A stretch of 64,000 bases of DNA from Hymenobacter sp. BT730. GTDB taxonomy: Bacteria > Bacteroidota > Bacteroidia > Cytophagales > Hymenobacteraceae. Position 1 is the stretch's first letter, and every line of letters starts with the position of its first letter. The DNA lies in assembly GCF_030542105.1 (NCBI RefSeq), contig NZ_JAUOFB010000001.1, positions 372,001 to 436,000 on the forward strand. The letters are read 5' to 3'. Shown here piece after piece: positions 30,937 to 35,401 of the stretch. The notes under the pieces are model-generated. The model did not search any database, had not been told where the DNA came from, and was given only the letters and a program-made list of their open reading frames with translations. The position numbers were made by a program, and so were the translations under genes.

Positions 30937-30966
30937 TTGCATTTCCAAAATCCTTGGCTAGCTTTG
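30937..30966 (+). promoter_or_regulatory. Promoter of the aromatic amino acid operon
   Basis: TTG (30937-30939), a 19-nt spacer and TAGCTTTG (30959-30966) match exactly the Bacteroidota consensus TTG-N19-TAnnTTTG. The predicted transcript starts about 30970-30974, leaving a ~15-nt leader before the first leader peptide. Confidence 0.85.
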
Positions 30967-30988
30967 GTCAACAACCCCCTTGCAGATC

Positions 30989-31048
30989 ATGCCTACGCGC
31001 GCGGCCCGTTTCTATTTTAGCTACTATTTCTACTACGGCAAACCGTAG
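30989..31048 (+). CDS. Phe/Tyr leader peptide 1 of the aromatic operon
   Basis: A 19-codon reading frame (ATG 30989, TAG 31046-31048) encoding a peptide with the core FYFSYYFYY: eight of nine consecutive residues are Phe or Tyr (3 Phe, 5 Tyr). It lies between a consensus promoter and a Rho-independent terminator, upstream of prephenate dehydratase. This is the form of an attenuation leader whose translation rate reads charged tRNA-Phe and tRNA-Tyr. The 3' end of the frame lies in its own hairpin CTACGG-CAAA-CCGTAG (31033-31048). It has no strong Shine-Dalgarno, as is normal in this phylum. The frame is too short for ordinary gene finders. Confidence 0.85.
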   Translation: MPTRAARFYFSYYFYYGKP

Positions 31049-31052
31049 CAGC

Positions 31053-31097
31053 GAGGCCCCTGTTTGTAGCATCATCCCACAAACTCATGCAAGCCTC
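31053..31097 (+). promoter_or_regulatory. Antiterminator hairpin of attenuator 1
   Basis: GAGGC (31053-31057) can pair with GCCTC (31093-31097), and GTTTGT (31062-31067) with ACAAAC (31079-31084), giving an interrupted stem. It uses the 5' arm of the terminator at 31091-31117, so the two structures exclude each other. A ribosome held on the aromatic codons (31010-31036) would leave 31053 onward free; one at the stop codon would cover GAGGC. Confidence 0.7.
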
Positions 31098-31117
31098 CCT
31101 ACCCGGAGGCTTTTTTT
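31091..31117 (+). terminator. Attenuator terminator 1
   Basis: AAGCCTCC (31091-31098) and GGAGGCTT (31105-31112) form an 8-bp stem with a 6-nt loop, followed by T to 31117. It ends transcription after leader peptide 1 unless the antiterminator forms. Confidence 0.88.
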
Positions 31118-31134
31118 ACGCCCCTTCTGACTCC

Positions 31135-31221
31135 ATGCGTTCCGACACTGCTCCTTTCTGCTTCTTCTTTAGCTACTACTTCTATTACCGGAAGCAGCGG
31201 GGCCCCTTTTGCATGTTCTAA
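31135..31221 (+). CDS. Phe/Tyr leader peptide 2 of the aromatic operon
   Basis: A 28-codon frame (ATG 31135, TAA 31219-31221) encoding a peptide with the core FCFFFSYYFYY: residues 8-18 hold 5 Phe and 4 Tyr, and two more Phe occur at 25 and 28. The core shares FSYYFYY and much nucleotide sequence with leader 1, so it looks like a duplicate that has lost the first stop codon. Its frame runs through the 5' arm of the second antiterminator (GGGGCCC 31199-31205). It lies between attenuator terminator 1 and terminator 2. Confidence 0.83.
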   Translation: MRSDTAPFCFFFSYYFYYRKQRGPFCMF

Positions 31222-31253
31222 CCACTCAGAATGCAGCAACTACCCAGGGCCCC
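31199..31253 (+). promoter_or_regulatory. Antiterminator hairpin of attenuator 2
   Basis: GGGGCCC (31199-31205) pairs perfectly with GGGCCCC (31247-31253), reinforced by TGCAT (31210-31214) with ATGCA (31231-31235). It takes up the 5' arm of the terminator at 31246-31276. The 5' arm starts 10 nt after the last Tyr codon of the leader core. Confidence 0.68.
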
Positions 31254-31276
31254 GCAACCGCGCCGGCCCTTTTTTA
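31246..31276 (+). terminator. Attenuator terminator 2
   Basis: AGGGCC (31246-31251) and GGCCCT (31265-31270) with a 13-nt loop that can form an inner GC pair, followed by TTTTTATTT. It ends 22 nt before the pheA start codon. Confidence 0.8.
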
Positions 31277-31298
31277 TTTCCGTTTTCGTTGAGTACTC

Positions 31299-32129
31299 AT
31301 GCCGCATACCATTGCCATTCAGGGTTTCGAAGGTAGCTTCCACCAGATAGCTGCCCGGCACTATTTCGGCCCTGCTGCCCTGACTTCGCCGTGCGCCACG
31401 TTTGGAGAAGTAGTGCGCCAGGTAGCCAGCGGCACGGCACCCTATGGCCTGATGGCCATTGAAAACTCTATTGCTGGCAGCATTCTGCCCAACTATAACC
31501 TGCTGCGCCAAGCCAATCTGCGCGTAACCGGCGAGGTGTACCTGCAGATCCGGCAGCACCTGATGGCATTGCCTGGCCAGCAGCTGGCCGATATACAGGA
31601 GGTGCATTCCCACCCCATGGCCTTGCTGCAGTGCGCCGACTTCCTGAACCAGCACGGCCACTGGCGGCTGGTAGAAACCGAGGATACGGCTCTGAGTGCC
31701 CAGCGCATTCAGGAAGGGCTGCGCATGGGCACGGCCGCCGTAGCCGGCAAGCTGGCCGCCGAGCTGTTTGGGCTGGAGATTCTGGAGAAGGATATTCATT
31801 CCGAAAAGAAAAACTATACCCGCTTTCTGGCAGTGGTGCGGCCCGAAAATGCCACGGCCGTGGAGCAGCCGAACAAAGCCTCGGTGTACTTCCACACCAC
31901 CCACGCGCAGGGCAGCCTGGCCCAGGTGCTGGTCCGGATTGCCGGGCAGGGCATCAACCTCTCCAAGCTTCAGTCCTTCCCCATTCCGGCCAAAACCTGG
32001 CATTACTACTTTCACGCCGACCTGGAGTTTGACGACCCGGCCCAGCTGGAAGCCGCACTCCGGGAAATAAAGCCCGTGACGGAAGGGCTGGAGGTGCTGG
32101 GCGTGTATCACAAAGGTGCCACCCACTGA
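31299..32129 (+). CDS. pheA: Prephenate dehydratase
   Basis: A 276-residue enzyme that converts prephenate to phenylpyruvate, the committed step to phenylalanine. The catalytic domain (residues 1-180) holds GFEGSFHQIAARHYF near the start, APYGLMAIENSIAGSI around 46-61 and the hallmark NYTRF near 170-174. The C-terminal ~85 residues form an ACT domain (ASVYFHTTHAQGSLAQVL...GINLSKLQSFPI), which binds Phe for feedback inhibition. There is no fused chorismate mutase; that activity is in the last gene of the operon. It is the first structural gene after the two attenuators. Confidence 0.96.
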   Translation: MPHTIAIQGFEGSFHQIAARHYFGPAALTSPCATFGEVVRQVASGTAPYGLMAIENSIAGSILPNYNLLRQANLRVTGEVYLQIRQHLMALPGQQLADIQEVHSHPMALLQCADFLNQHGHWRLVETEDTALSAQRIQEGLRMGTAAVAGKLAAELFGLEILEKDIHSEKKNYTRFLAVVRPENATAVEQPNKASVYFHTTHAQGSLAQVLVRIAGQGINLSKLQSFPIPAKTWHYYFHADLEFDDPAQLEAALREIKPVTEGLEVLGVYHKGATH

Positions 32130-32197: not shown

Positions 32198-33391
32198 ATG
32201 CAAGTTTCCGTAGCCAGCCGCCTCCACCACACGCAGGAGTATTACTTCTCTCAGAAGCTGCGCGAAATTGATGGGCTGAATAAGGCCGGCGCGCCGGTTA
32301 TTAACCTGGGGATTGGCAGTCCGGATATGCCGCCGCATCCCCGCGTTATTGCGGCGCTTACTACCGCGGCCCAACTGCCCAACACCCACGCCTACCAGAA
32401 CTATAAAGGCGTGCCGGTCCTGCGCCAGGCTATGGCCAATTGGTACCAGCGGTTCTACGGCGTGGTGCTGAACCCGGAGGCGGAAGTGCTGCCGCTGCTG
32501 GGCTCCAAGGAAGGCATCATCCACATCAGCATGACGTTTCTGGAAGCCGGCGACGAAGTGCTGATTCCGAACCCCGGCTACCCGGCCTACCGCGCCGCCG
32601 CCCAGCTCAGCGGCGCCATCCCCGTGGACTACGACCTGACCGCCGCCAACCACTGGCTGCCCGACCTGGAGGCGCTGGCCCAACAGGACTTGAGCCGCGT
32701 GAAGCTGATGTGGGTGAACTACCCGCACATGCCCACCGGCACCCCGCCCGATGCAGCTTTTTTTGCCCGTTTGGTGGCATTTGCCACAGCCCACGATATT
32801 CTTCTGGTGCACGACAACCCCTACAGCTTCATTCTCAACCAGGACCCGCCGCAGAGTTTGCTGGCCGTGCCGGGGGCGCGGGAAGTGGTGCTGGAGCTGA
32901 ACTCCTTGAGCAAGTCGCACAACATGGCGGGCTGGCGCGTGGGCATGCTCCTGGGCCGCGCCGATTTGCTGCAGGAAGTGCTGCGCTTCAAGAGCAACCT
33001 CGATTCGGGGATGTTTCTGCCGGTGCAGCTGGCGGCCATCGAAGCCCTGCAGCTGGATGAAAGCTGGTACGCGGAGCTGAACGCCCATTATGCCGCCCGC
33101 CGGGAGTTGGTGTTTGAGCTGCTGGAAACCATCGGCTGCAGCTTTACCCGCCAGCAGGTGGGCTTGTTTGTGTGGGCGGCTATTCCGGCCGGGTATGCGG
33201 ATGGCTTCGCGCTGAGCGACGAGCTACTGCACACGGCGCGGGTATTCCTCACGCCCGGCGGCATTTTTGGTACGAATGGCAGCGGCTTTATTCGGGTGAG
33301 TTTATGCCAGACCACGGAGGTGCTGCAGGCTGCCCTAGGGCGCATACGCGCGGCCCGGGTTCAACCCTCTTTTACTACTTCGGATTCATGA
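32198..33391 (+). CDS. Pyridoxal-phosphate aminotransferase (aspartate/aromatic type)
   Basis: A 397-residue class I/II aminotransferase. The PLP lysine is K239 in SLSKSHNMAGWRVG. The substrate-binding NPGYPAYRAAAQLSG and the VNYPHMPTG segment in place of the usual NPNNPTG are also visible. Its position between prephenate dehydratase and prephenate dehydrogenase implies it aminates phenylpyruvate and 4-hydroxyphenylpyruvate to Phe and Tyr. Related enzymes also act on aspartate or methionine precursors, so specificity is inferred from context. Its stop overlaps the tyrA start (ATGA, 33388-33391). Confidence 0.9.
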   Translation: MQVSVASRLHHTQEYYFSQKLREIDGLNKAGAPVINLGIGSPDMPPHPRVIAALTTAAQLPNTHAYQNYKGVPVLRQAMANWYQRFYGVVLNPEAEVLPLLGSKEGIIHISMTFLEAGDEVLIPNPGYPAYRAAAQLSGAIPVDYDLTAANHWLPDLEALAQQDLSRVKLMWVNYPHMPTGTPPDAAFFARLVAFATAHDILLVHDNPYSFILNQDPPQSLLAVPGAREVVLELNSLSKSHNMAGWRVGMLLGRADLLQEVLRFKSNLDSGMFLPVQLAAIEALQLDESWYAELNAHYAARRELVFELLETIGCSFTRQQVGLFVWAAIPAGYADGFALSDELLHTARVFLTPGGIFGTNGSGFIRVSLCQTTEVLQAALGRIRAARVQPSFTTSDS

Positions 33392-34233
33392 AAACTGTAA
33401 CTATCATCGGTATCGGGCTTATTGGCGGCTCACTGGCCATCAGCCTCCGGCAGAAAGGATTAGCCAGCCACATTATTGGGGTAGACCACAGCCCCGAAAA
33501 TCTGCAGCAGGCCCAGCAGCTACAGCTGATTGACGAAGGCACTACGGACCTGATCAGCGCCGTGCGTCGGGCTGACCTGGTGGTAGTGGCCGTGCCCATG
33601 GATGCTATGCTCACGGTGCTGCCCCAGGTTTTGGATGCGGTAGAAAACCAGGTGGTTATCGATGTGGGTTCTACCAAATCTATGCTGCTGGCCGCCGTGG
33701 CCGGGCACCCCAGGCGCGGCCGTTTTGTGGCCGTACACCCCATGGCCGGCACCGAATACTCCGGCCCGGAAGCCGCCGTGCCGGAGCTGTTCACCGACAA
33801 AACTCTGGTTATCTGCGACGCGGAACAAAGTGATGCTGATGCCGTGGCGCAGGTGCAAACCCTATTCGAGCAGCTGCAGATGAACATTGAGTACCTCGAT
33901 GCCGCGGCCCACGACCTGCACACGGCGTACGTGTCGCACATTTCGCATATCACGTCTTTTGCCCTGGCCCTCACCGTATTAGAAAAGGAAAAAGAAGAGC
34001 AGCAGATTTTTGCCCTGGCCAGCGGGGGCTTCGCCTCCACCGTGCGGCTGGCCAAAAGCTCGCCCGATATGTGGGTGCCCATCTTCCGCCAGAACCGCGT
34101 GAACGTGCTCGATGTACTCGATGAGCACATTCACCAGTTGCAGCACCTGCGCCAGCTCATTGCCCAGGAAGACTACGCCGCCGTGTACCAACAGATCCAG
34201 CAAGCCAACCTCATTACGAAAATTCTGAAGTAA
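33388..34233 (+). CDS. tyrA: Prephenate dehydrogenase
   Basis: A 281-residue NAD(P)-dependent enzyme that oxidatively decarboxylates prephenate to 4-hydroxyphenylpyruvate for tyrosine. The nucleotide-binding GIGLIGGSL is at residues 8-16. The motif HPMAGTE near 117-123 and DLHTAYVSHISHITSFALAL near 175-195 carry the substrate-binding histidines. The ATG at 33388 overlaps the aminotransferase stop by 4 nt; longer in-frame starts lie inside that gene and are rejected. No ACT domain is present, so feedback by Tyr may be weak or act through the operon's attenuators. Confidence 0.95.
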   Translation: MKTVTIIGIGLIGGSLAISLRQKGLASHIIGVDHSPENLQQAQQLQLIDEGTTDLISAVRRADLVVVAVPMDAMLTVLPQVLDAVENQVVIDVGSTKSMLLAAVAGHPRRGRFVAVHPMAGTEYSGPEAAVPELFTDKTLVICDAEQSDADAVAQVQTLFEQLQMNIEYLDAAAHDLHTAYVSHISHITSFALALTVLEKEKEEQQIFALASGGFASTVRLAKSSPDMWVPIFRQNRVNVLDVLDEHIHQLQHLRQLIAQEDYAAVYQQIQQANLITKILK

Positions 34234-34327: not shown

Positions 34328-35401
34328 ATGCAATCTGCCCTTTTCAACCGCCAGCCCGACGATAAGCCTTACCTGATTTCCGGGCCCTGCTCCGCCGAAA
34401 CCGAAGAGCAGGTCCTGGATACCTGCCAGCGCCTGGCCGCCACCGGCAAGGTGCAGGCCCTGCGCGCCGGCATCTGGAAACCCCGCACCAAGCCCGGCGG
34501 CTTCGAGGGCGTGGGTACCAAAGGACTACCCTGGCTCAAGAAAGCCAGTGAGCTGACCGGCCTTCCCATTGCCGTGGAAGTGGCCACCGCCAAGCACGTG
34601 GAAGACTGCCTGGCTTTCGGCGTGGATATTCTGTGGGTGGGCGCCCGCACCACCGGCAATCCGTTTTCGGTGCAGGAAATTGCCAATGTGCTGCGCGGCG
34701 TGCAGGTACCGGTGCTGGTCAAAAACCCCATTCACCCGGAGCTGGAACTGTGGGTGGGTGCCGTGGAGCGCCTGCAAAAGGCCGGGCTGGAAAAAGTGGG
34801 CCTGATTCACCGCGGCTTCAGCAGCTACGGCAACACCGACTACCGCAACGCGCCCATGTGGCACCTGCCCATCGAAATGAAGCGGCGCCATCCGGAAATG
34901 CCGCTGCTTTGCGACCCCAGCCACATCTGCGGCCGCCGCGATACGCTCTTCGCCGTGGCCCAGCAGGCCCTCAATCTGGGCTTCGATGGCAACATGATTG
35001 AAAGCCACCAGGACCCCGACGCGGCCTGGAGCGACGCCAAGCAGCAGATTACTCCCGAGGTGCTAAAGGACATGATTCAGGACCTGGTGTGGCGCCACGA
35101 AACCACTAATCAGCGCGAGTTCCTGACGGCCCTGGCCAGCCTGCGCGAGCAAATTAACCAGCTCGATGCTGAAATTATTCAGCTGCTGGGTCGCCGCATG
35201 GGTGTAGCCGAGAAAATAGGGGAGTACAAAAAGGAAAATGATATTACTATTCTGCAAACCAGCCGCTGGAATGAGGTACTGGAGCGCGCCCAGCGTCAGG
35301 GCACGTCCGTGGGCCTTACGCCGGAGTTTGTAGAGCAGTATTTCGCCGCTGTGCACCTGGAATCCATCAACCGCCAAAACGCCGTGATGAATCGGGAATA
35401 A
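34328..35401 (+). CDS. Bifunctional DAHP synthase (AroA-beta type)/chorismate mutase
   Basis: A 357-residue two-domain enzyme. Residues ~15-255 are a 3-deoxy-7-phosphoheptulonate synthase of the short (KDO8P-synthase-like) type: ISGPCSAETEEQV, RAGIWKPRTKPGGFEGVG, LWVGARTTGNPFSVQEIA, CDPSHICGRRD. Residues ~262-350 are a class II chorismate mutase (LREQINQLDAEIIQLLGRRMGVAEKIGEYKK). It thus catalyses the first step of the shikimate pathway and the chorismate-to-prephenate step feeding pheA and tyrA. The ATG at 34328 is chosen because the upstream 23 codons lie in the hairpin and spacer. It is the last gene of the operon. Confidence 0.95.
   Translation: MQSALFNRQPDDKPYLISGPCSAETEEQVLDTCQRLAATGKVQALRAGIWKPRTKPGGFEGVGTKGLPWLKKASELTGLPIAVEVATAKHVEDCLAFGVDILWVGARTTGNPFSVQEIANVLRGVQVPVLVKNPIHPELELWVGAVERLQKAGLEKVGLIHRGFSSYGNTDYRNAPMWHLPIEMKRRHPEMPLLCDPSHICGRRDTLFAVAQQALNLGFDGNMIESHQDPDAAWSDAKQQITPEVLKDMIQDLVWRHETTNQREFLTALASLREQINQLDAEIIQLLGRRMGVAEKIGEYKKENDITILQTSRWNEVLERAQRQGTSVGLTPEFVEQYFAAVHLESINRQNAVMNRE

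Follow-up and report, generated by a model that had tools for sequence, protein, structure and literature searches.

The pheA, his and trp operons of Proteobacteria are known to be governed by ribosome-mediated attenuators, and attenuators in Bacteroidota may reportedly also have been predicted by Lopatovskaya et al. 2010 and Vitreschak et al. (2004). The locus described here resembles the proteobacterial systems and the Rfam family RF01859 in having a leader peptide rich in codons for the product, a terminator set against an antiterminator and a biosynthetic operon downstream. It is unlike them in having two modules in series, in carrying both Phe and Tyr codons and in relying on a simple exchange between three RNA arms, A, B and C.

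Three papers, each represented here by selected portions, bear more closely on this locus. The transcriptome of Flavobacterium psychrophilum gave strong clues for leader-peptide attenuation ahead of amino-acid operons, and a structured element in the 5' region of its pheA is conserved in other Flavobacteriaceae (PMC9723704). That element belongs to the same phylum and the same gene as ours, and the portions of the account used here hold no analysis of a tandem, a peptide or Phe/Tyr codons (PMC9723704). In the long 5' UTRs of Bacteroides thetaiotaomicron, which shares its phylum with Hymenobacter, short frames were likened by the authors to attenuation leaders; the named example is not an amino-acid operon, however, and the portions used here report no test of the mechanism (PMC7366714). 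Tandem attenuators have been described for Salmonella mgtCBR, where they respond to different signals (ATP and proline) and act additively (PMC3641672). As in our case, two short frames lie in one leader mRNA and each constitutes a switch; unlike mgtCBR, our two leaders contain the same codons, possess an intrinsic terminator each and are arranged in series (PMC3641672).

An earlier sequence-only reading of the locus knew of no described double Phe/Tyr attenuator in Bacteroidota. In agreement with this, a literature search covering few subscription papers turned up neither a description of two amino-acid attenuators in series that read the same signal nor one of Phe-codon loss in leaders. Attenuation and a pheA element in Flavobacterium and leader-like frames in Bacteroides had already been reported, however, and what is new is therefore the tandem, the wide spread of the leaders and the tracking of the pathway product by their codons.

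Results

The window analysed is a 64,000-nt stretch of the genome of Hymenobacter sp. BT730. On its + strand a single promoter stands ahead of two leader frames rich in Phe and Tyr; each frame has an intrinsic terminator (B:C) and a competing upstream arm (A). Behind them lie pheA (prephenate dehydratase; 31299-32129; Pfam PF00800), a class I/II aminotransferase gene that we name aspC (32198-33391; PF00155), tyrA (prephenate dehydrogenase; 33388-34233; PF02153 and PF20463, with NF006307 above its cut-off) and a DAHP synthase-chorismate mutase fusion (DAHP/CM; 34328-35401; PF00793 and PF01817). These assignments bear out the earlier view that the operon makes Phe and Tyr, and the leader codons thus match the product of the pathway. 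The PheA protein of the window is 92% identical to that of H. lucidus, 90% to that of H. metallicola and 91% to that of H. nitidus.

Initiation signals in Bacteroidota differ from those of E. coli. A scan for E. coli-type promoters, whose consensus is that of E. coli and not of Bacteroidota, found none on the + strand of the region, and the earlier claim of one consensus promoter holds only against the Bacteroidota consensus: TTG at 30937-30939, 19 nt and TAGCTTTG at 30959-30966 form a match, which places the promoter at 30937-30966. A strict Bacteroidota-type pattern preceded leader 1 at 25 of 109 loci (0.5 on average in shuffles) and leader 2 at none of 84 (0.8 on average in shuffles). Since the pattern overlooks most leader-1 promoters, its complete lack before leader 2 argues only weakly against a promoter there.

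Leader 1 (MPTRAARFYFSYYFYYGKP and a stop codon) occupies 30989-31048 and leader 2 (MRSDTAPFCFFFSYYFYYRKQRGPFCMF and a stop codon) 31135-31221, where the sequence-only reading had placed them. The window holds 588 ATG frames of 12-44 aa, both strands counted, and these two alone have at least 7 F/Y in 10 residues, a density reached by no frame in 30 dinucleotide shuffles of the window. Leader 2 was listed from a further in-frame ATG at 31087 as well; this start, directly ahead of the terminator 1 stem, would make leader 2 longer by 16 residues (31087-31221).

Arm A1 (GCGAGGC, 31051-31057) lies directly past the leader 1 stop codon and, in the predicted fold, pairs with B1 (31091-31098) to give antiterminator 1, which has an upper hairpin at 31062-31084 (31062-31067 with 31079-31084). 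Terminator 1 (31091-31117) consists of B1, C1 (31105-31112) and a T-run to 31117. Arm A2 (GCGGGGCCC, 31197-31205), within the final codons of leader 2, is the predicted partner of B2 (31246-31255); terminator 2 (31246-31275) consists of B2, C2 (31260-31270) and a T-run to 31275. The terminator stems (31091-31112 and 31246-31270) and the arms able to prevent them, both part of the earlier reading, were thus recovered by folding, and comparative sequence upholds both them and the mutually exclusive use of B (see below). A simple consensus scan listed terminator 1 and not terminator 2.

The leaders are conserved in relatives, a point on which the earlier reading had staked itself. PheA was matched in 107 of 120 genus genomes, and upstream DNA was readable for 106 (G126 is split, and G004 was matched by a PheA fragment only). 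Each of the 106 has a Phe/Tyr leader upstream of pheA, two being present in 81 and a single one in 25, and two leaders are therefore not essential. The nearest genus group, g19, has two in 3/3 loci read, so that genus and g19 combined have a leader at 109/109 pheA loci and two at 84. Farther out, 68 of 77 chosen loci, which were selected from larger lists, usually one for each genus and with a bias to strong matches, have one or two leaders. Other genera of the family contribute 17 of 18 chosen loci with a leader (two in L144 and L146) and the class set 51 of 58 (two in L045, from Lewinella, and in L191); L195 has an extra leader-like frame without a terminator. An ATG leader was not found at L040, L042, L043, L135, L160, L162, L171, L202 or L023; the leader of L171 starts with GTG. 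Loci with other PheA types have a leader in 0/22, although these and the class set were divided post hoc, on the basis of a motif at the PheA N terminus and of the places where leaders had appeared, and L023 belongs to neither. Before any such grouping, ATG leaders were counted at 37/40 fetched same-order or same-class loci, 4/4 of L153-L156, 6/9 named genomes (L037-L045), 4/20 phylum-level loci and 0/8 of the same-order loci L023-L030. With a threshold of at least 6 F/Y in 10, the reverse strand gave no leader in any of the four locus sets and base shuffles gave 0, 0, 0.3 and 0 loci (0 for the 109 genus and g19 loci); with at least 5 in 10, the class set gave 6/58 reverse-strand loci and, in shuffles, 2.5.

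Alignment of relatives gave the pattern that the sequence-only reading had foreseen, in which Phe/Tyr positions are kept, flanks drift and terminator stems covary. In the 19-aa form of leader 1, block columns are mostly 82-100% F or Y; F and Y replace one another within the block and synonymous codons vary at most of its columns. All 84 tandem genomes have both Phe and Tyr codons in both leaders and, judged by codons, are thus not a case of two switches for different signals of the mgtCBR kind.

Trp codons are also present in 21 of 54 class-set leaders (FWNGFYFYFF types, for example), as though DAHP synthase control were responsive to Trp as well. pheA is not alone in having leader frames, since trpE and hisG of the genome of the window have them as well: a single Trp leader, MTTQLTLQAWWWPLGNSGRDNLCVR (with WWW), lies at about -231 from the trpE match (G000:C6, L158), with a GC-rich hairpin and T-run behind it that we read by eye, and a single frame ending in HHHLHGHHSSF lies at about -466 from the hisG match (G000:C7, L157). 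Among the pheA, trpE and hisG operons inspected in this genome, two leaders were seen at pheA only.

The RF01859 (Phe_leader) model scored 20.5 bits in the window and 44.8 at the best of 15 scanned loci, short of its gathering score of 55, and assignment to an Rfam family was rejected, as a permissive-threshold scan gave sub-gathering matches only. Sub-gathering matches to AaHKsRNA41 and microRNA models were seen at L011:1362-1461, L022:1-95 and L009:3545-3690; those in L011 and L022 are on both strands and may be long inverted repeats.

A terminator follows 193/193 leader frames of Hymenobacter and g19, 19/19 of the family and 53/54 of the class set, and A:B pairing of at least 5 bp is available in 192/193, 19/19 and 52 modules, respectively. 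By energy, A:B is at or beyond 95% of shuffles in 145/193, 13/19 and 46/53; by pair count, it is above 95% of shuffles in only 38/193, 2/19 and 19/53. The median distance from the aromatic block to the start of A is 14 nt for the first or only leader of Hymenobacter, 9 for leader 2, 10 in the family and 9 in the class set. Counted from where the stop codon ends, A starts at a median of +1 in Hymenobacter leader 1, -24 in leader 2 and -16 and -19 in the other sets.

Covariation scores of the terminator stems of both modules were reached by 0/500 shuffles of the alignments. Within the genus the module-1 antiterminator performed well on most measures, its score being equalled by 0/500 shuffles and its count of pairs with double changes by 100/500, while A2:B2 covaries weakly (22/500 as high). 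The structures come from the same sequences, which biases the slide control in their favour, and relatedness among rows can suffice to beat shuffles without structure; because of these caveats we added a test in which A was paired with its own B or with that of other genomes. Own A:B was better than the mean with other genomes' B in 65/74 cases for Hymenobacter leader 1, 54/72 for leader 2, 8/16 for the family and 48/52 for the class set. In 2000 permutations none was as good for leader 1, leader 2 or the class set, and the 16 family sequences gave p 0.049. Between lineages, A, B and C change together.

The switch was modelled by equilibrium folding with a ribosome footprint imposed on the RNA. 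When C was not yet made, B was paired upstream in 105/109 (module 1) and 78/84 (module 2) with the ribosome in mid-block, in 31/109 and 23/84 with the ribosome at the stop codon, and in 79/109 and 63/84 without a ribosome. At full length, the terminator formed in 109/109 and 83/84 with the ribosome at the stop codon and in 108/109 and 65/84 without one. A stalled ribosome often left B:C in place at full length: for stalls at the first, middle and last aromatic codon, respectively, the terminator still formed in 70, 47 and 98 of 109 (module 1), 56, 46 and 53 of 84 (module 2) and 16, 16 and 13 of 17 family modules. Module 1 of the window formed its terminator in every ribosome state at full length, and A:B only before C was made. 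Equilibrium folding alone accordingly fails as a proof of switching for this module and for most family modules. Since B:C often persists, the switch depends on co-transcriptional timing, and the folds support it provided that A:B forms before C is transcribed, a timing that we infer.

Loss of pheA within the genus constitutes a natural experiment. No PheA match was found at E 0.001 in 13 genus genomes, four of which (G055, G072, G083 and G090; completeness 100) keep aminotransferase-tyrA-DAHP/CM with both leaders directly in front. Summed over both leaders, Tyr codons number 10, 8, 9 and 8 in these four, compared with a mean of 8.1 (range 6-11) in the 84 pheA-bearing tandem genomes, and Phe codons 4, 3, 3 and 3, compared with a mean of 8.6 (range 5-13). 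Taken singly, leader 1 of L263 and L264 and leader 2 of L262 and L265 fall below the pheA-bearing range for Phe and the other 4/8 fall inside it. Against a consensus that we made from the sister leaders of L020, L106 and L125, L263-L265 keep Phe at 5/21 positions and Tyr at 23/30. Phe was lost from both leaders of all three, the loss in leader 1 of L265 being one of three; L262 retains three Phe in leader 1. The aminotransferase tree requires two losses of pheA, and the pheA-less tandem genomes therefore represent at least two lineages, not four. Our strongest evidence, drawn from comparison of sequences, is this tie between loss of pheA and loss of Phe codons with Tyr kept.

The remaining nine genomes (G039, G015, G042, G007, G086, G109, G117, G118 and G131) have neither a PheA match nor a close relative of the operon aminotransferase, and are possibly auxotrophs or have pathways that were not recognised. 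In eight, a DAHP/CM relative (50-68% identical) is present and the 900 nt ahead of it hold no aromatic leader, and G118 (81% complete) has only a 34% DAHP synthase match. In pheA-less genomes of other genera, an aminotransferase match of E 1e-30 or better was found in 2/22, both about 30% identical.

In the PheA tree, the deepest rows of the genus and g19 have the tandem, and rows with a single leader are confined to a few groups, with 8 changes of leader number, at least 5 of them forced by starred branches. This suggests that the tandem is ancestral in the genus and g19 and that module 2 was lost later, although the tree is a quick one with long outgroup branches and the direction of change rests on the outgroup. 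In L128 (the genome of L247), which was scored as single, an aromatic leader 2 persists; as read by eye, its stop codon is lost and the frame runs through the terminator. The tandems of L045, L144, L146 and L191 (the first terminator of the last was read by eye) probably arose separately. We rejected the idea that leader 2 generally represents a recent duplicate of leader 1, as the similarity of the two within a genome (22.5) equals that across genomes (22.1). L001, L046 and L047, the clade of the window, are an exception, with leader-leader DNA local scores of 44-49 against a mean of 22 (in the window, 31010-31066 resembles 31156-31211), and this unusual likeness suggests recent copying between modules in that clade.

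Discussion

We consider it very likely that the region upstream of pheA specifies two serial, ribosome-mediated attenuators of transcription on a single transcript, and that operon transcription is probably stopped by the leaders when Phe and Tyr are plentiful. The serial Phe/Tyr reading draws support from: (i) conservation of the codons; (ii) covariation of the terminator stems; (iii) the tracking of its own B by A and (iv) the loss of Phe in pheA-less relatives. In each module a ribosome would translate the short leader with its Phe/Tyr block. With charged tRNA-Phe and tRNA-Tyr both plentiful, it would reach the stop codon and either mask A or disrupt the antiterminator hairpin; B would then pair with C and RNA polymerase would stop. 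If either tRNA were short, the ribosome would stall on uncharged tRNA within the block, leaving A, which starts about 9-14 nt beyond, free to take B, and with A:B formed transcription would continue. Polymerase would have to pass both modules, with a separate ribosome on each, to reach pheA-aspC-tyrA-DAHP/CM. If the modules are independent, their readthrough probabilities would multiply, with less leak and a steeper response as the expected consequences.

A different view is that one module alone regulates and that the other is a copy, either redundant or in decay. The single leader in 25 of the 106 genus genomes, the lost leader 2 stop codon in L128 and the failure of A1:B1 of the window to hold at full length are all compatible with this, but both modules of the 84 tandem genomes have kept an F/Y block and a terminator, and Phe disappeared from both leaders of L263, L264 and L265 (one of three in leader 1 of L265), and we therefore regard it as unlikely. 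Still less probable, to the point that we give it very little weight, is that peptide-specific ribosome arrest or Rho acts in place of stalling that depends on charged tRNA and of intrinsic termination. Arrest of ribosomes by nascent chains is known from other systems, but at this locus the same columns show both F-Y exchange and variation among synonymous codons, T-run terminators stand behind the leaders, and Phe codons were lost where Phe synthesis was lost.

It is also possible, although we lean against it, that the two modules are not equivalent, in that an untranslated module 1 would terminate whereas an untranslated module 2 would tend to readthrough, and amino-acid shortage could thereby be told from a failure of translation. 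The placement of A relative to the stop codon is steady within each module and differs between them (median +1 versus -24), and it is chiefly module 1 that forms B:C at full length without a ribosome (108/109 versus 65/84). These counts come from equilibrium folding only, however, and they also mean that 65/84 of the second modules terminate without a ribosome; moreover, before C exists B is paired upstream at nearly the same frequency in both (79/109 versus 63/84). Two serial attenuators that read the same signal remain our favored interpretation.

Whichever way the modules divide the work, the locus offers a natural case, open to testing, in which two transcription checkpoints in series would read the same signal, with single-module sister species for comparison. 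What a second attenuator buys could be lower leak, a steeper response or protection from false signals, and in the pheA-less genomes a codon-swap experiment is already at hand. A broader scenario, which we put forward tentatively and would not ourselves wager on, is that a Phe/Tyr attenuator of pheA is old and widespread in Bacteroidota; that Hymenobacter and, apparently separately, a few other lineages made of it a serial same-signal device with two locks; that the locks fail differently without translation, such that the operon would stay closed unless Phe or Tyr were truly short; and that loss of a pathway product leads evolution to re-tune the device. That the leader is so widespread suggests ribosome-mediated attenuation as a main means by which Bacteroidota control their aromatic amino-acid synthesis.
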